NCBI GenBank assembly: GCA_937863905.1
Contig: CALMHV010000169.1
Span: 1 to 7,016 of the forward strand
Direction of reading: 5' to 3'
Source: an uncultured Bacillota bacterium
Lineage (GTDB): Bacteria; Bacillota; Sulfobacillia; UBA995; UBA9673
Length of the DNA: 7,016 nt
A program made the translations under genes and the position numbers. The notes under the pieces are model-generated. The model was not told the DNA's origin and ran no database searches. It was given only the letters and a program-made list of their open reading frames with translations. This document shows, in pieces, positions 547-7,016 of the stretch. Numbering within the stretch: position 1 is the first letter of the stretch; the number at the start of each line of letters is the position of its first letter.

Positions 547-1764
547 ATGCCCACTCCGCAGCTTCCCGGTGACGTCTACATCCTGGACCTCGGTCGCCCT
601 GATCCCTCGCCGGAGGCGGTTCAACAGGCCGTCGATCGCCTCTTCGCTCTGACCGGCCTGGACAAGGTCATCGGCGCCGTCGGGCGGGCCGCCACGCCTG
701 CCGCCGGGCCCGCGGTCGCTACGTCCCCGGGCACCGCTCCCCGGTGCCAGGTCCTCATCAAGCCCAACATCCTGGCCCCGGTCCCGGCCGAGATGCACGT
801 CACCACCAGCCCGTCCGTCGTCCGGGCCGTCGTCGGGGCCGTGCGCGCGGCGGGGGGCACGCCCTCGGTCGGGGACAACCCGGGTGGGGTCGACCGGAAT
901 TCTCTCCACACCGCCGAGGTCTGCGGCATCCTGGCCGCCTCCGACGGCTGTTTCCGCAACCTCTCCGACGAGGTCGTCGAGATGCGCCTCGACAACCCCT
1001 CCGTCGACAAGGTCGTCATCTCCAAGTTCATCCTCGAGGCCGACGTGGTCATCAACGTCCCGGTCTTCAAGACCCACATGCTGACCACGCTGACGGGAGC
1101 GGTGAAGAACTGCTACGGCTACGTGGCCGGCACGAACAAGGCCCGGCTCCACCTGGCCGCCTTTTCGCGGGGGCGCTTCGCCCAGCTTCTCCTGGACCTC
1201 TACGCCCTGCGTGTGCCCGACCTCCATATCGTGGACGCCCTGTACGTGATGGAAGGCAACGGCCCCACCCACGGGCGCGTCCGCCCCTACGGGAAGCTGG
1301 TCGCCGGCCGCGACGGCCTGGCCGTGGACCACGTCCTGACCAGGCTGATGGGTGTCGACCCGGCCGAGACGCGCCTGTTCCAAAGGGCGGTCGAGCGCGG
1401 GCTCTTCCGCCCGGAGACCGTCCGCGTCCTCGACGGCGACGGGAACCCCGTCCAGGTGGAGGCCATCCCCAACTTCGCCCTGCCCAACACGATAGGCGTG
1501 TCTATCGAGGAACAGGCCCAACTCTTAGTCGCGCTCGGGGCCATCCGGCCCGTGGTCAAGGAGGACCTCTGCACCATGTGCGGGGACTGCGCTAAGAACT
1601 GCCCGCCCCAGGCCATCACCCTGGATCCGTTCCCCGTGATCGACGCGGGCAAGTGCATCTCCTGTTTCTGCTGCGCCGAACTCTGCACCGAGGGAGCCAT
1701 GGAGGTGCCGTCCGGCGAGGCGACGGGTCTGTTCAACAGGATGTTCCGGGGAGGTTCAGCCTAG
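547..1764 (+). CDS. DUF362 protein with C-terminal 2x[4Fe-4S] ferredoxin domain
   Basis: This is a 405-residue iron-sulfur protein. The DUF362 domain spans about residues 10-320, with the characteristic LIKPNIL near residue 72, an AGG..VGDNPGG segment near 105-117, and VINVPVFKTH..TTLTGAVKNCYG near 165-190. An Ala/Pro/Gly-rich stretch at about 40-64 interrupts the N-terminal part. The C-terminus carries two ferredoxin motifs: Cys342, 345, 348, 352 followed by Pro, and Cys370, 373, 376, 380, with an extra Cys375. Two [4Fe-4S] clusters and cytoplasmic electron transfer follow from this; the substrate of DUF362 is not known. The ATG at 547 is chosen because the reading frame upstream (to 277) is Arg/Pro-rich and overlaps the membrane gene; AAAGGCGG lies about 11 bases upstream. 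The stop shares a base with the next start, so the gene is coupled to the dehydratase-like pair. I infer, but cannot show, that it supplies electrons to that pair. Confidence 0.88.
   Translation: MPTPQLPGDVYILDLGRPDPSPEAVQQAVDRLFALTGLDKVIGAVGRAATPAAGPAVATSPGTAPRCQVLIKPNILAPVPAEMHVTTSPSVVRAVVGAVRAAGGTPSVGDNPGGVDRNSLHTAEVCGILAASDGCFRNLSDEVVEMRLDNPSVDKVVISKFILEADVVINVPVFKTHMLTTLTGAVKNCYGYVAGTNKARLHLAAFSRGRFAQLLLDLYALRVPDLHIVDALYVMEGNGPTHGRVRPYGKLVAGRDGLAVDHVLTRLMGVDPAETRLFQRAVERGLFRPETVRVLDGDGNPVQVEAIPNFALPNTIGVSIEEQAQLLVALGAIRPVVKEDLCTMCGDCAKNCPPQAITLDPFPVIDAGKCISCFCCAELCTEGAMEVPSGEATGLFNRMFRGGSA
1748..1754 (+). promoter_or_regulatory. Ribosome binding site fixing the GTG start at 1764
   Basis: GGGGAGG sits nine bases before the GTG at 1764, inside the end of the DUF362-ferredoxin gene. 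The frame stays open back to an ATG at 1653, but that upstream part overlaps the ferredoxin cysteines in another frame. The GTG is therefore the better start. The junction reads TAGTG, with the stop and start sharing one G, which suggests coupled translation. Confidence 0.7.
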
Positions 1765-2891
1765 TGCTGGAGCGCCTGGTTGCGGCCGGGGCCGATCCCC
1801 TGGCCCATCGGCCATCCGACCGGCCGTCCCTCGGTTACGTGTGCTCGTACGTCCCGGAGGAGGTCATCCTGGCCGCCGGCTTCCACCCGGTGCGCCTGGG
1901 GGCGAGGCCGGGCCCGACAGGCCCGGCCGACAGTCTGCTGCAGACCTTCGCCTGTTCGTTCGCGCGGGCCTTGCTCGACGGCCTTCTCTCCGGCCGGGCG
2001 GCCGGCCTGTCCGGCGTGGTCTTCGCCTACACCTGCGACTCGCTGCGGGCCGCCATGGAGGCCTGGAAGGTGCGGGCCCCGGCCGGGTCCTTCATCCACT
2101 TCCTGAACCTGCCGGCCCGTCTGGAGGGCCCCGGCGTCGACACCTACGCCGCCTCCGAGGTGCAGCGGCTGGCGGACGCTTTGGCCGGAGTGAAAGGCGG
2201 GCGCCAGGTCACGGCCGAGAGGCTGGCCGAGGCCACGCGGCTCGTGGCCGACCTGCGGCGGAGCCTCGGGCGCCTCGACCGGGTGAGGTCCTCACGCCCG
2301 GACCTCCTGCCCGGTTCGGTCTTCATCGCCGTGGCTCGGGGCGCGCAGGCTCTCGAACGTTCCGAGGCGGCGCGGCTCCTGGCCGCCCTGGCCGACGAGT
2401 TTGAGGCTGCCGCGGCCCGGCCGTCCCAGCCCGCCGGCCGCCCCCGCCTCCTCGTCTCCGGCGGGTATCTCGAGACGGAGCAGCCCCTGCGCCTCATCGA
2501 GGAATCCGGGGCCGACATCGTGGCCGACGACCTGTGCCTGGGCTGGCGCCGCATCGCCTTCGCGGAGGACGACGAGCCCAACAGCCTGGCCGAGCTTGCC
2601 GCCCGGTACCTCCGGCGCGTGCCCTGCGCCGCCAAACATCCGCCCGACCCGCGTTTCGATTTTGTCGTCCGCCTGGCCGACGAACACCAGGTCGCCGGCG
2701 GCGTGTTCCTGCTCCAGAAGTTCTGCGACCCGCACGCCTTCGACTACCCGGCTCTCCGCGACCGGCTGGAGGCCACCGGCCGTCCGACCCTCCTGCTTGA
2801 GGTGGAGCAGGGGAGCGTGGCCTCCGGGCAGGCCCGGACGCGTCTGGAGGCCTTCGTTGAGCGGTTGCGGGCGGGAGGTGGCTCCTCGTGA
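1764..2891 (+). CDS. HGD-D family subunit (2-hydroxyacyl-CoA dehydratase / benzoyl-CoA reductase type), smaller subunit
   Basis: This 375-residue protein belongs to the iron-sulfur family that includes HgdB, FldC, BcrC and the double-cubane cluster proteins. Recognisable blocks are GYVCSYVPEEVILAAGFHPVRL (about 24-45), TFACSFAR (61-68), YTCDSLR (89-95), a central helical part (130-220), SGGYLE (232-237), and the C-terminal LQKFCDPH plus GQARTRLEAFVE (317-367). Cys64, Cys91 and Cys321 are spaced 27 and 230 apart, close to the three-cysteine [4Fe-4S] ligand pattern of the family. Three further cysteines (27, 258, 288) bring the total to six. Family members carry out ATP-driven radical dehydration or reduction of CoA thioesters, or reduction of small molecules, after one-electron activation by an ASKHA ATPase. 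No such activator is visible here. The start is GTG at 1764, set by GGGGAGG. The substrate cannot be predicted. Confidence 0.87.
   Translation: MLERLVAAGADPLAHRPSDRPSLGYVCSYVPEEVILAAGFHPVRLGARPGPTGPADSLLQTFACSFARALLDGLLSGRAAGLSGVVFAYTCDSLRAAMEAWKVRAPAGSFIHFLNLPARLEGPGVDTYAASEVQRLADALAGVKGGRQVTAERLAEATRLVADLRRSLGRLDRVRSSRPDLLPGSVFIAVARGAQALERSEAARLLAALADEFEAAAARPSQPAGRPRLLVSGGYLETEQPLRLIEESGADIVADDLCLGWRRIAFAEDDEPNSLAELAARYLRRVPCAAKHPPDPRFDFVVRLADEHQVAGGVFLLQKFCDPHAFDYPALRDRLEATGRPTLLLEVEQGSVASGQARTRLEAFVERLRAGGGSS
2874..2878 (+). promoter_or_regulatory. Ribosome binding site for the second HGD-D subunit
   Basis: GGAGG lies nine bases before the GTG at 2888, inside the 3' end of the preceding gene. 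The junction is GTGA: the new start and the old stop overlap by four bases. This is typical of coupled translation for subunits made in equal amounts. Confidence 0.65.
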
Positions 2892-4150
2892 CCCAGCCCG
2901 AACGCCCTCTCGCGACCGACCTGCGCCTGGCCGCCGACCGGGACCTGAAGGGCCTCATCCTCAAGCACTACCTCGGCGCCTACCGCGCCAAGCGACCGTT
3001 CTCGCGGCGTCCCGTGGCCTGGGTGACCAGCGGCGCCCCGGTCGAGATCCTGCTGGCCCTGGGCATCCTGCCGATCTACCCGGAGAACTACGGGGCTCTC
3101 GTCGGCAGCCGGAAGGCCGCCGTCCCCTACTGCGAGTCGGCCGAGCAGGCCGGCTACAGCCAGGACCTGTGCTCCTACGCCCGGACGAACATCGGGTCGA
3201 TGCTCACGGGGCGGGGCGAGTTGGCCGGCCGGCCCCTGCCGCGCCCGGACCTCCTGGTCGCCGCCAAGAACATCTGCGATGTCGTCGTGAAATGGTGGGA
3301 GGTCACCGCCCGCCACTTCGACTGCCCGCTCTTCATCCTCGACACCCCGTTCGCCGCCGACGGCCTCACTCCGGACCAGGTCGCCTATGTCCGCGGCCAA
3401 CTCGAGGAACTGGTCGTCGTGGCCTCGAAAGCGGTTCGGCGCCCGGCGCCTCCGCCGGCAGCCTTCGAGCGCGACCTGCTGAAGGTCCTCGACCTCACGC
3501 GTCAGGCCACGGGCCTCTGGCAGGAGATCCAGACCTTGCGCCAGGCGTCGCCGACGCCCGCCTCGGCTCTGGACATGTTCACCAACCTTTTCCCCATCGT
3601 CACCCTCCGGGGGACGCAGGCCTGCGTGGACTACTATCGCCAGGTCCGCGACGAACTCGCCGAGCGCGTGCGGCGCGGCGTGGGCGCCGTGCCCGGGGAA
3701 CGCTTCCGCCTCCTCTGGGACAACATCGCCATCTGGTACGACTTCGACCTCGTCCGCTACCTCCACGCGCGGGGCGCGGCCTTCGTCGGCGAGACCTACA
3801 CCGACGCCTGGGGCATCTACCAGTTCAGCCCGGAGGACGAGAAGGATCCCCTCGGGGCCATGGCCCGCCAGTACTCGCTCATCCTGCTCAACATCGGTCT
3901 GGGGACGCGCAAGGAGCGTCTGTTCAACATGCTGCGGGCCCAACGGGCCGACGGGGCCGTCTTCCACTCCTGCCGGAGCTGCAAGACGTATTCCCTGGGG
4001 CAATACGAGTTGGCGCGGGCCGTCCGCGATGAGTTGGGGCTTCCGGTCCTGGTGCTGGAGGCCGACATGACCGACTCCCGGGCCTACGCCGCCGGGCCGG
4101 CCATGACACGAATCGACGCCTTTCTTGAGCTTTTGACCTCAAAAGCCTAG
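2888..4150 (+). CDS. HGD-D family subunit (2-hydroxyacyl-CoA dehydratase / benzoyl-CoA reductase type), larger subunit
   Basis: This 420-residue protein is homologous in fold to the upstream gene but belongs to the BcrB/HgdA-like branch. Key blocks are TSGAPVEILLALGILPIYPENYGA (about 47-70), VPYCESAEQAGYSQDLCSYAR (79-99), NICDVVVKWWE (128-138), FDCPLFILDTPF (144-155), a central block around WDNIAIWYDFD (277-287), and HSCRSCKTYSLGQ (360-372) followed by LEADMTDSRAY (390-400). Cys95, Cys130 and Cys365 are spaced 35 and 235 apart, as expected for ligands of the subunit [4Fe-4S] cluster; Cys82, Cys146, Cys246 and Cys362 are extra. Two dissimilar subunits made from overlapping genes suggest a heterodimer in the cytoplasm. 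The family reduces or dehydrates acyl-CoA esters using very low-potential electrons. The exact reaction is unknown; a non-CoA reductive role, as for double-cubane proteins, is possible. Confidence 0.87.
   Translation: MTQPERPLATDLRLAADRDLKGLILKHYLGAYRAKRPFSRRPVAWVTSGAPVEILLALGILPIYPENYGALVGSRKAAVPYCESAEQAGYSQDLCSYARTNIGSMLTGRGELAGRPLPRPDLLVAAKNICDVVVKWWEVTARHFDCPLFILDTPFAADGLTPDQVAYVRGQLEELVVVASKAVRRPAPPPAAFERDLLKVLDLTRQATGLWQEIQTLRQASPTPASALDMFTNLFPIVTLRGTQACVDYYRQVRDELAERVRRGVGAVPGERFRLLWDNIAIWYDFDLVRYLHARGAAFVGETYTDAWGIYQFSPEDEKDPLGAMARQYSLILLNIGLGTRKERLFNMLRAQRADGAVFHSCRSCKTYSLGQYELARAVRDELGLPVLVLEADMTDSRAYAAGPAMTRIDAFLELLTSKA
4129..4146 (+). repeat. 8-bp perfect palindrome at the end of the dehydratase-like operon
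   Basis: GCTTTTGA and TCAAAAGC form 8-bp arms around a central CC, ending one base before the TAG stop at 4148. As RNA it could fold as a 7-bp stem with a tetraloop. No T-tract follows, so it is a poor intrinsic terminator. It could instead be an operator-like site or a 3' end structure. A chance origin within coding sequence is possible. Confidence 0.3.
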
Positions 4151-4243: not shown

Positions 4244-4660
4244 ATGGCTGTCGTCGGCTCGGACAATGTCGAGGCCTCCGCTCGTCCACTCATCTTCGTC
4301 GTCGAACCGAATCCCTTCATGGCCGAGATGGAGCGCTCCATCCTGAGGTCCTACGCCGTCGAGTTTCTCTCCCCGGAGACCGTCGTCCGCGCGGCCGTCT
4401 CGCGCCGGCCCGACCTCATCATCGCCGAGATTGTCCTGCGCGGCCGGGATGGGCTGGCCCTGTGCCGCGAACTCAAGGCCCGGCCCGAGACCGCGGCTAT
4501 CCCGTTCCTGGTCTTCAGCGTTGTCGACGCGGCCGCGGAGGCCGCGGAGGCCGGAGCCGACGCCTTCTTGCTCAAGCCGTCCGAACGGAACGCCTTGGCC
4601 CCTGAAGTCCGGCGACTCATCGGTCCGCCTCGTTCACATGGACGGGAGGCAACGCCTTGA
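4244..4660 (+). CDS. Stand-alone receiver domain with altered phosphorylation site
   Basis: This 138-residue protein is a single CheY/Spo0F-like receiver domain with no output domain. The first strand reads IFVVEPNPF (17-25), so the usual acidic pair is Glu21-Pro22. The phospho-acceptor strand reads PDLIIAEIVLRGRDG (56-70), placing Glu62 where the Asp normally lies. The conserved Ser92 (FSVVD) and Lys111 (LLKPS) are kept, as is the helix pattern. With Glu at the acceptor site and a broken acidic pair, normal Mg-dependent Asp phosphorylation is unlikely. It may act as a constitutively active mimic, a binding partner or a scaffold. The start ATG at 4244 is preceded by GGGGGAGAGG at 4232-4241. 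It overlaps the next gene by four bases (TTGA), which ties it to the GAF/Spo0E protein and the kinase. Family assignment is firm; the role is inferred. Confidence 0.88.
   Translation: MAVVGSDNVEASARPLIFVVEPNPFMAEMERSILRSYAVEFLSPETVVRAAVSRRPDLIIAEIVLRGRDGLALCRELKARPETAAIPFLVFSVVDAAAEAAEAGADAFLLKPSERNALAPEVRRLIGPPRSHGREATP
4644..4649 (+). promoter_or_regulatory. Ribosome binding site supporting a TTG start at 4657
   Basis: GGGAGG lies seven bases before TTG at 4657, within the end of the receiver gene. The next in-frame ATG (4723) has no comparable site, so the TTG is preferred. The junction is TTGA, with the receiver's TGA stop inside it. Confidence 0.6.
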
Positions 4661-5847
4661 CCTGCGCCGACGATTTTGACCCCGCCGACGGCGCGAAGCC
4701 TCTAGCCGCGAGCGCCCCCAGGATGAACCTCCAGCACCGGCGAGTGTTCCTCCGGGGTACCGGCCTGCGCCAGGTGGCGGACTACCTGGCCCAGAGCTTC
4801 GCCGCGCTCCTTGGCCTGGAAGCCTGCGTCCTCTATCTCTACGACCACCGCCGCGCCAATCTCGTGGCCGTGACCTCCGTCGGCCGGGTCACGGATCTCC
4901 GACGCCTCGGTCGCATCCCTCTGGACCCCGGAACCGGACTGGCCGCCCTGGCGGCGAGCCCCGGCGAACCCGGAGGCTCTGTCTCCCTCCCCCTCTGGGA
5001 CAGCCGGCGTCTTCTCGGCGTGGTCTACGGGCGGATGAACCCTGGCCGGGTTCCCGACCCCGGTTTGGTGAACCTGGCCCGAGCCATGGCCAGGGGAGGC
5101 GCTCTCGCCCTCTCGGTCGCTCTGGCCAAGCCGGGTGGGAACTCCGGGGTGGCCAAGGCCCGCCTGCCGCGGTACCAGGGGGTGGCCGGGGAGTTCCTGC
5201 TTAACCCGTACCTCACCCGCTACCTCGAATCCGCCCTGCGGCTGACCCAGCCGGACGGCGCCGTGGTCCTCGCCCTGCTCCGCCTGGCGGGCCCCGGGTG
5301 TCTGGGCCGGCTACCGTACCGGGGTTGCCCCGTCCCGGCCCCTCGCGCCTTAGGGCGCGGCTTCGGGCTCGGTCGGGGCTCCAATCGGGTGGCCGTGGTC
5401 TGGTTGGGGCTGAGCCGCCAGGACGCGGCGGCCCGGTTGAGGCTCCTGATGGCCGGGAGTCTCTCCCTGGACGACATCATCGGCCGAACTGCCGCGGTCG
5501 CCCGACCGACCTCGGCGGCCGTCGTGAGCCATAACGAGGACCTGGTCGGGGCGGGGTCGATGCTGGCCGTCGCCTCCGACCTTCTGGACCTGCAGACCTG
5601 CCTGCAATCCACACGTCGGGACGAAAGGAGGGAGCCCGTGCACCAGTTGACCGGCGACGCAGCGGCCATGGTCATGGACAGCCATGTCCTGGCCCAAGAG
5701 ATCGACCGGCAACGACAAGTCCTGCAAGACGCGATCGCCAGTGGGTGCGATTTCCAGGACAGGCACGTCAGGGAGATCAGCGAGCGTCTCGATAGACTTA
5801 TTGTCGTGATGATGAGGCTGATGGGCCATCGGGGAGCGGTTCCCTAG
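4657..5847 (+). CDS. GAF / degenerate GGDEF-like / Spo0E-like fusion protein
   Basis: This is a 396-residue cytosolic protein. Residues about 36-157 look like a GAF sensor domain (LRQVADYLAQSFAALLG, then ACVLYLYD, and VSLPLWDSRRLLGVVYG). Residues about 185-312 have the order of elements of a diguanylate cyclase domain (RGSNRVAVVWLGLSRQDAAARL, then a VSHNEDL..AGSMLAVASDLLDL ending), but no GGDEF signature, so it is probably inactive; this call is tentative. Residues about 342-389 form a helix-loop-helix with EIDRQRQVLQ and ISERLDRLI, matching Spo0E-like aspartyl-phosphate phosphatases, whose usual signature is SQELD. Spo0E proteins remove phosphate from Spo0A and are normally 50-85 residues and free-standing, so the fusion is unusual. 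A TTG start with GGGAGG is used, overlapping the receiver gene by four bases. The protein may tie a ligand or redox signal to Spo0A dephosphorylation. Confidence 0.72.
   Translation: MTCADDFDPADGAKPLAASAPRMNLQHRRVFLRGTGLRQVADYLAQSFAALLGLEACVLYLYDHRRANLVAVTSVGRVTDLRRLGRIPLDPGTGLAALAASPGEPGGSVSLPLWDSRRLLGVVYGRMNPGRVPDPGLVNLARAMARGGALALSVALAKPGGNSGVAKARLPRYQGVAGEFLLNPYLTRYLESALRLTQPDGAVVLALLRLAGPGCLGRLPYRGCPVPAPRALGRGFGLGRGSNRVAVVWLGLSRQDAAARLRLLMAGSLSLDDIIGRTAAVARPTSAAVVSHNEDLVGAGSMLAVASDLLDLQTCLQSTRRDERREPVHQLTGDAAAMVMDSHVLAQEIDRQRQVLQDAIASGCDFQDRHVREISERLDRLIVVMMRLMGHRGAVP
5624..5631 (+). promoter_or_regulatory. Consensus Shine-Dalgarno inside the fusion gene
   Basis: AAAGGAGG, an exact match to the Bacillota consensus, ends six bases before an in-frame GTG at 5638. 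It is the best ribosome binding site in the window, better than those at most gene starts. It includes two consecutive AGG arginine codons. Its position just before the Spo0E-like domain suggests internal translation initiation. Confidence 0.55.
5638..5847 (+). CDS. Candidate nested Spo0E-like phosphatase from an internal start
   Basis: Starting at GTG 5638, the same frame as the long protein yields a 69-residue polypeptide beginning VHQLTGDAAAMVMDS and containing only the Spo0E-like helix-loop-helix. Helix 1 is about residues 15-33 (HVLAQEIDRQRQVLQD) and helix 2 about 39-60, with Ser48-Glu-Arg-Leu-Asp52 at the place of the SQELD signature. The size is typical of free Spo0E-family proteins, which dephosphorylate Spo0A~P and delay sporulation. 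Three points support it: the consensus AAAGGAGG at 5624-5631, the correct spacing, and the coincidence of the start with the domain boundary. It could be made in addition to the full-length protein. The alternative is that only the fusion is translated and the Shine-Dalgarno match is a by-product of tandem AGG codons. I see no way to decide from sequence alone. Confidence 0.42.
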   Translation: MHQLTGDAAAMVMDSHVLAQEIDRQRQVLQDAIASGCDFQDRHVREISERLDRLIVVMMRLMGHRGAVP

Positions 5848-5871
5848 CGCGAACTGAGCGTGAGGAACGAG

Positions 5872-7016
5872 GTGGCTCGACTGAAGTCAAGGCAGGCGCC
5901 AAGCGAGAGCTGGATAGCTCAGCCTTGGGACGCCGTGAAGCTGCTGGCCGGAGACCTGGGTTTTAGCCTCGCCGATGGCCACGGCGACTGGCGGGGTGGC
6001 TCTAACTCTCTCTCTCGGACCAAGACGCCCCGAGCTTTGACGCAGGTGACCGAGACCGACCTGGAGACCCTGAGGGTGGAGAACGACGGGCTGATCAAGA
6101 TCTGTCGGGACTATGTCGAAGCCCTGAGCCGGGCCGAAAGGACTCTCGGCCTGGAAGGCTTCGTCGTGCTGTCCGAATGCTCCGGAGTCCTCCTGGAGGT
6201 GGTTCCCCTCCAGAACCAAGCCGCGGGGGCGGGCCCTCCGTCCATGGCCGCTCTGGTCCCCGGCACGGTCCTCTCCCTGATGGCCGCGGGCGTGAATCCC
6301 ATCGGGCTGGCCCTGGACCAGGCCGCGGTGGCGATCCTCCCGCCACCCGACCCCGCGGTGCGGCGCCGCGCCCTCGGTATCTGCGGCCTGGCCGTCCCGC
6401 TCGGTCGCTCGCCGGTACCGGTGGGGTGCCTGGCCATCCTGGTGCCGCCGCGCCCGCTCGGGGTCGCTCCAGCGGTCCTGGGCCAGGCGCTTTTCTCGGC
6501 CCGGGCCATCGAGCTGGCCTTGGCCCTCAAACAGGAGCGCTCCACCAACCTGCAGGCGGCCGCCAGCCTGGCTCACGAGGTCAGAAACCCCCTCACCGCG
6601 GTGAAGGGGTTCCTGCAGCTCACGCTGACCCATGGGAGCGAGGTCCCGGAGTACTCCGGGCTGGCCCTCCGCGAGCTGGACCGGGCCATCAGCCTGCTGG
6701 AAGACTACTCCCTCCTCAGCCGCACGCCGAGGATGGCCCCGGACCAGGAACTGAAGGTCGACGGCCTCATGTCCGACGCCGCCCTTCTCGCCCGCGGCAT
6801 GGTGGGCAGCGGACCGGCCGTGACCATCGACTACCGTCACTCCGCTCCCGGCCTGACGCTCCTGGGCGATCCCCAAAGGCTCAAGCAGGTCCTCCTGAAC
6901 CTCTGCCGGAACGCCATCGAGGCCATGCCGGCGGGCGGTCTGCTGACCCTGCGGGCCCGGCGCCAGGATGGGGAAGTCGTCCTGGAGGTGTCCGACACCG
7001 GGGTGGGCATCCCCGC
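5872..7016 (+). CDS. Cytosolic GAF-sensor histidine kinase, sporulation-kinase type (3' end outside window)
   Basis: An open frame of 381 codons runs off the window. Residues 1-58 are poorly ordered and unconserved. A helix around 59-90 (TDLETLRVENDGLIKICRDY) leads into a GAF-like sensor at about 92-222, with GVNPIGLAL at 140-148 and a later AVPLG..PVGCLAIL, resembling the N-terminal sensors of AcoR-type regulators. The H-box SLAHEVRNPLTAVKGFLQL, with His235 as the likely phosphorylated residue, resembles Bacillus KinA-E kinases. The ATPase domain shows an N-box (QVLLNLCRNAIEAMP, Asn347) and a G1 box (DTGVGIP, Asp375); the remaining lid and G2 box are cut off. There is no membrane segment, so it is soluble. 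GTG 5872 is chosen for GAGG at 5862-5865; GTG 5860 is an alternative. It lies 24 bases after the Spo0E fusion gene, so kinase and phosphatase are probably co-transcribed. Confidence 0.88.
   Translation, partial: MARLKSRQAPSESWIAQPWDAVKLLAGDLGFSLADGHGDWRGGSNSLSRTKTPRALTQVTETDLETLRVENDGLIKICRDYVEALSRAERTLGLEGFVVLSECSGVLLEVVPLQNQAAGAGPPSMAALVPGTVLSLMAAGVNPIGLALDQAAVAILPPPDPAVRRRALGICGLAVPLGRSPVPVGCLAILVPPRPLGVAPAVLGQALFSARAIELALALKQERSTNLQAAASLAHEVRNPLTAVKGFLQLTLTHGSEVPEYSGLALRELDRAISLLEDYSLLSRTPRMAPDQELKVDGLMSDAALLARGMVGSGPAVTIDYRHSAPGLTLLGDPQRLKQVLLNLCRNAIEAMPAGGLLTLRARRQDGEVVLEVSDTGVGIP

Follow-up and report, generated by a model that had tools for sequence, protein, structure and literature searches.

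A Spo0E-like domain fused to a predicted GAF/GGDEF-fold sensor, with a candidate internal translation start, in an uncultured lineage of Bacillota

Can a single gene supply both a sensor-bound and a free form of a Spo0E-like protein? The question is raised by a 396-codon gene in the window analyzed here (7,016 nucleotides, the whole of one contig of the 1.94 Mb draft genome G000 of an uncultured Bacillota bacterium), in which a Shine-Dalgarno (SD) sequence and a GTG are found in frame ahead of a C-terminal Spo0E-like domain. To our knowledge, little is known about the control of Spo0E proteins, and a Spo0E brake joined to a predicted sensor beside a kinase gene offers a direct handle on it. 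The fusion also connects a GGDEF-fold module with sporulation. With a working internal start, translation would determine how much of the brake is sensor-bound and how much is free.

Domain architecture of the fusion gene

The TTG start of the fusion gene overlaps the TGA of an upstream receiver gene. Three domains are predicted in the encoded protein, and their positions are given in Table 1 together with the features of the internal site and the flanking genes.

Table 1. Features of the fusion gene and its immediate neighbours in the window
Feature	Position	Strand	Basis and remarks
Single-domain receiver protein	4244..4660	+	Pfam Response_reg, 48.7 bits; upstream of fusion
GAF - degenerate GGDEF-fold - Spo0E-like fusion gene	4657..5847	+	396-codon ORF, TTG start at 4657; Pfam; homologues in 4/4 family genomes
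Predicted GAF domain	4756..5130	+	About residues 34–158
Predicted degenerate GGDEF-fold domain	5206..5625	+	About residues 184–323; GGDEF motif not seen
Internal SD AAAGGAGG	5624..5631	+	Sequence; GGAGG core at same codons in 4/4 DNA sequences
In-frame GTG (V328, codon 328)	5638..5640	+	Six-base spacer; start codon also in L005, absent from L004 and L006
Predicted internal product, 69 residues, ~7.8 kDa	5638..5847	+	Contains entire PF09388 match
ATG of Met340 (MDS)	5674..5676	+	Precedes first Spo0E helix; invariant in 18/18 rows; no SD at normal distance
Spo0E-like helical hairpin, predicted	5680..5829	+	Residues 342–391; PF09388; SxxxD = S375, D379
Histidine kinase (HisKA + HATPase_c)	5860..7016	+	Pfam; cut by window end; 12 nt after fusion stop if GTG 5860 is the start

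The joining of a Spo0E-like domain to the C-terminal end of a predicted sensor is a solid finding. PF09388 matches the full protein with 24.6 bits and the 69-residue C-terminal piece with 29.0 bits (cut-off 23), and the same profile is matched at E 1 or better by all 18 family members. The protein alignment comprises 18 rows, namely the window's protein and 17 homologues (P0001–P0014 and L004–L006), and S375 and D379 of the SxxxD signature are invariant in every row. In the predicted structure, two helices (residues 342–361 and 369–391) form a two-helix hairpin. A sequence search of the PDB returned three weak matches and no Spo0E chain.

In PMC11115286, Spo0E is described as a small Spo0A-inactivating phosphatase with an SxxxD motif; the survey in that paper was filtered for proteins of 40–100 aa, so fusions of the present kind fell outside it. 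The window's domain shares with the Spo0E family (PF09388; Spo0E of B. subtilis and of C. difficile) the profile match, the SxxxD signature and the predicted two-helix hairpin, but it follows a predicted GAF domain and a degenerate GGDEF-fold domain in the same polypeptide. The 396-codon gene does not encode a stand-alone protein of about 40–100 aa, which is the usual though not the defining form of Spo0E, and the 69-residue product is a prediction only. Among the matches listed in an open literature search, none dealt with a Spo0E domain fusion or with a link between Spo0E and c-di-GMP or GGDEF.

GAF profiles score below cut-off (GAF_2, 17.3 of 28.6 bits; GAF_3, 15.5 of 27 bits), GAF_3 is matched at E 1 or better by 15 of the 18 members, and the structure model points to a GAF fold. 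The second domain was predicted alone, as structural matches of the whole model mainly covered residues 23–161, and its model is consistent with a GGDEF fold. PF00990 (GGDEF) is absent from the seven Pfam families matched by the 18 members, and no GGDEF or GGEEF motif was found; at the expected position, judged by eye, the consensus is FGFGxxSNRVALVW. The GGDEF domain of PelD is likewise degenerate. PelD (4etz) also has a GAF followed by a GGDEF-fold domain, and the structures align over 296–312 columns with low TM-scores (0.28–0.32 by target), whereas the C-terminal output in the window gene is the Spo0E hairpin.

The fusion is present in all four family genomes examined, which are also the only four among 154 genomes of the class. 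In a phylum sample it was found in one of 398 genomes, the window's own, and a search of a database of 5.8 billion proteins retrieved 14 homologues. Spo0E fusions in general are not common in the class: PF09388 occurs in 71 of the 154 class genomes, mostly in short frames, and three of the longer frames (L018, L034 and L035), inspected by eye, have Spo0E at the end of overlapping high-GC frames, with no recognizable partner. Spo0A_C was detected in three of the four family genomes, including the window's; the fourth, G001, is 81% complete.

A ribosome-binding match inside the frame

The original prediction placed an SD, a six-base spacer and an in-frame GTG within the fusion gene, and all three are exactly as described, with GAGCCC (5632–5637) as the spacer. 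It also claimed a 69-residue product starting just before the Spo0E-like hairpin; this holds as well, with GTG 5638 in the linker 14 residues ahead of the hairpin. Two other uses of the region were considered and rejected. The SD does not serve the next gene, as the kinase start lies near 5860, about 230 bases further on. The invariant Met340 ATG was rejected as the true internal start, as no SD was seen before it in any of the four DNA sequences.

The strength of the SD and its shared core make a second initiation event at GTG 5638 plausible, and our tentative reading is that the GAF/GGDEF-fold/Spo0E fusion gene carries an internal SD/GTG that would start a minor free 69-residue product in this lineage. 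The full-length protein would be the main product and would sense a signal via GAF/GGDEF, and its tethered hairpin, predicted to act on Spo0A, would oppose the neighbouring histidine kinase. As a secondary event, AAAGGAGG in the linker would recruit ribosomes for initiation at GTG 5638, yielding the hairpin without the sensor.

Bacterial signalling genes with an in-frame short form include CheA of E. coli (CheA-L/CheA-S; PMC11005335) and AerR of Rhodobacter capsulatus (PMC6199135). The window gene resembles them in having an SD and a start inside the frame, and its short product would likewise lose the N-terminal part; the short forms of CheA and AerR were shown by experiment, whereas that of the window gene is predicted from sequence. 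Among the matches listed in an open literature search, none describes an internal start for a Spo0E protein, which does not prove that no such case exists. PMC5100845 reports that SD sequences are depleted inside genes.

The strength of the site was compared with the genome background. Across the 1.94 Mb genome, AAGGAGG-N4-9-DTG has 93 occurrences and its reversed form has 66; by itself, the pattern is therefore weak evidence. Genes were called with a home-made codon-usage script (491 genes, 88% coding) in a sample of 569 kb, picked to include every AAGGAGG-start place and hence biased toward strong sites. Of the 93 forward places, 48 lie no more than 30 codons from a called start; the rest are internal and in frame (16), out of frame (6), antisense (16) or other (7). 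For the AAAGGAGG pattern, 8 of 17 places are near starts and 2 are internal in frame; the backward motif GGAGGAA, counted in the same stretches (picked for the forward motif), gave 36 places, of which 11 are close to starts and 3 lie inside genes in frame.

Pairing energies were calculated with the standard anti-SD rather than one read from the host 16S, as the 16S tail pattern was found in none of the four family genomes. The predicted pairing at GTG 5638 is −12.1 kcal/mol, compared with −10.3 kcal/mol at the gene's own TTG. Among the 5,711 internal in-frame start codons in the sample, only 9, with GTG 5638 one of them, pair this strongly, and the same value is reached by 10.7% of 412 gene starts (best candidate start per call). 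GTG 5638 is the least folded of these nine sites, and about 94% of the sampled internal sites are equally or more folded. The ribosome-binding match is unusually strong and weakly structured, and disorder is predicted for the linker that contains it.

Alternatively, the internal SD-GTG may be incidental, arising where Glu-Arg-Arg-Glu happens to be written GAA AGG AGG GAG. Initiation would then be leaky and functionless, the tethered fusion alone would matter, and free Spo0E would come from its own gene. This explanation has a sizeable chance of being correct, and an incidental origin is nearly as likely as secondary initiation. The 93 pattern places against 66 reversed ones and the 16 internal in-frame cases fit it; the low folding of GTG 5638 among the strongest internal sites argues against it.

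Disorder of the linker also allows a third route, in which the free Spo0E domain is released by proteolysis rather than by internal translation. Residues 323–335 have a pLDDT below 50 in the predicted structure and are variable across the family, which favours this route; proteolysis, however, would not preserve a nucleotide motif, and we regard this route as improbable.

Conservation of the start codon

DNA was compared among four sequences, those of the window and of L004, L005 and L006, whose orthologues of the fusion are 42–48% identical to the window's. The linker reads GAA AGG AGG GAG CCC GTG in the window, GAA GGG AGG GAC CCG GTG in L005, GAG AGG AGG GAA ACC TCC in L004 and GAA GGG AGG GAC GGC CGA in L006. 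A start codon is present at the GTG column in two of the four (the window and L005), and L005 carries GAAGGGAGGGACCCG-GTG with spacing identical to the window's. In L004 and L006, no ATG, GTG or TTG follows GGAGG until the Met340 ATG, about 40 nt downstream.

The 17 homologues were also examined at the protein level for the capacity to encode, with any codon choice, GGAGG and an in-frame start 4–10 nt later within the linker. Five can encode the pair at the same place (P0001–P0003, P0011 and L005), six only elsewhere in the linker (P0006, P0008, P0010, P0012, P0014 and L006), and six cannot encode it at all (P0004, P0005, P0007, P0009, P0013 and L004). P0009 nearly duplicates L004, and P0012 closely resembles L006, in whose DNA the pair is absent although the protein would permit it. 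The E[GR]R[DE] segment itself is missing in 8 of the 17 (P0004–P0008, P0010, P0013 and P0014). Valine occupies the GTG column in 7 of 18 rows, with two changes on the tree drawn; a single origin is still compatible with the well-supported branches.

The closest proteins, P0001–P0003 (93–96% identical), have EGRD instead of ERRE. EGRD permits at most AAGGGAGG, with −11.8 kcal/mol as in L005, so that the GGAGG core is still possible, and the perfect consensus AAAGGAGG is, among the sequences seen, private to the window's strain. Conservation of SD and GTG among homologues, put forward earlier as a check, stands for the SD core in all four DNA sequences and fails for the SD together with its start. 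As start codons are missing in L004 and L006, the internal start is at best a lineage-restricted trait. An incidental site is favoured by each of these observations: the start codon in half of the DNA sequences, the homologues unable to encode the pair, and the near-identical relatives without RR.

Conservation of the Shine-Dalgarno core

The test of synonymous conservation at the AGG codons was positive for the core, with GGAGG in all four DNA sequences. This sharing despite a rare codon choice speaks against an incidental site. AGG makes up 9.4% of Arg codons in G000. Arg325 is AGG in all four sequences; none of the other nine all-Arg columns is AGG throughout, and one of them, column 372, is AGG or AGA throughout. 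The tandem AGG AGG of the window recurs only in L004 among the DNA of the three relatives. With amino acids fixed and codons drawn by usage, GGAGG in all four was reached in 12 of 4,000 simulations. Codons 322–329 have 13 of 18 same-codon matches against 7.7 expected, a count reached in 99 of 4,000 simulations. Codons 324–331 rank first in synonymous conservation among 323 eight-codon windows, and the best eight-codon window is not significant once the whole gene is scanned (748 of 4,000).

The fusion and kinase genes of the window contain five GGAGG, of which only the one in the linker is common to all four genomes; such sharing occurs elsewhere too, as one of three GGAGG in an HGD-D gene is common to 3/3 sequences. 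At [GR]R[DE], xGG-AGG is used in 5/238, 7/212, 9/185 and 16/291 cases in the samples of G000–G003 (2.1–5.5%, fusion site included). An empirical null was built from 350 ortholog pairs outside the fusion, after 6 fusion pairs had been set aside. These pairs have a median identity of 64% and contain 955 aligned [GR]R junctions, with 27 and 39 carriers of xGG-AGG and 2 shared, a conditional rate of 6% (95% upper bound 18%). If orthologues are treated as independent, three further orthologues would all share xGG-AGG with a probability of about 0.0002, or as much as 0.006 when the bound is used. For AGG alone, the sharing rate between other orthologues is 21%, which makes four of four an event of about 0.01 under the same treatment.

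A core kept without its start may have another role, in which an SD-like sequence in the linker slows elongating ribosomes and gives the sensor time to fold ahead of the Spo0E hairpin. Whether SD-like sequences cause pausing is disputed. Ribosome slowing agrees with the presence of GGAGG in L004 and L006, where the start codon is missing, and with its position at a predicted domain boundary, but only four DNA sequences are involved and the eight homologues lacking the E[GR]R[DE] segment do not fit; we give this role little credence. In L004, from position 2390 onward, GAAA and CCTCC come after the SD core and could form with it a tetraloop hairpin hiding GGAGG, a hairpin not chosen by the MFE fold of an 80-base stretch.

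Free Spo0E-like proteins elsewhere in the genomes

Each of the four genomes contains exactly one further PF09388 match, which is unfused; judged by their likely starts, these frames encode free short proteins. Since such a frame exists in all four genomes, the internal product is not needed for a free form, a point in favour of an incidental site. The idea that one gene makes both tethered and free Spo0E was therefore borne out only in part: the conserved fusion and the strong SD support it, whereas the unconserved start and the separate free frames weigh against it. A full dual-product brake on Spo0A, in which Spo0E tethered under GAF/pseudo-GGDEF control and an always-on free Spo0E from a conserved internal SD act beside an opposing kinase, appears unlikely. 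If it were true, translation would set the share of the sporulation brake that obeys the sensor.

In the window's genome, the separate Spo0E-like frame (G000:C344; L002 1114–1710, − strand) lies between NuoA/NuoB-like and MurB-like frames, named by eye, and hardly any SD precedes its likely ATG (62 aa).

A search with the 69-residue product retrieved two short proteins of the same Spo0E subfamily, P0015 (81 aa, 70%) and P0016 (71 aa, 61%). P0016 starts at the GTG column and P0015 six residues earlier, a point in favour of internal initiation. Both could be genuine free genes, or else artefacts of gene calling in broken frames; in the 154 genomes of the class, P0016 had no match beyond the four fusions.

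Genomic neighbourhood

A kinase gene resembling the window's adjoins the 3′ side of the fusion in all four genomes. No receiver gene was found at the corresponding upstream place in L004, L005 or L006 (ORFs of at least 120 aa). The upstream receiver of the window has DLIIAEIVLRGRDG at the site that the phospho-acceptor Asp usually occupies; with Glu there, the protein may be a pseudo-receiver.

The window also carries a DUF4064 gene, a DUF362-ferredoxin gene and two HGD-D (2-hydroxyglutaryl-CoA dehydratase-like) genes, the last three at 547–4150, upstream of the fusion. An HGD-D-like gene lies upstream of the fusion in three of the four genomes (the window's, L004 and L006); in L005 this place is taken by a gene judged by eye to be KaiC-like.
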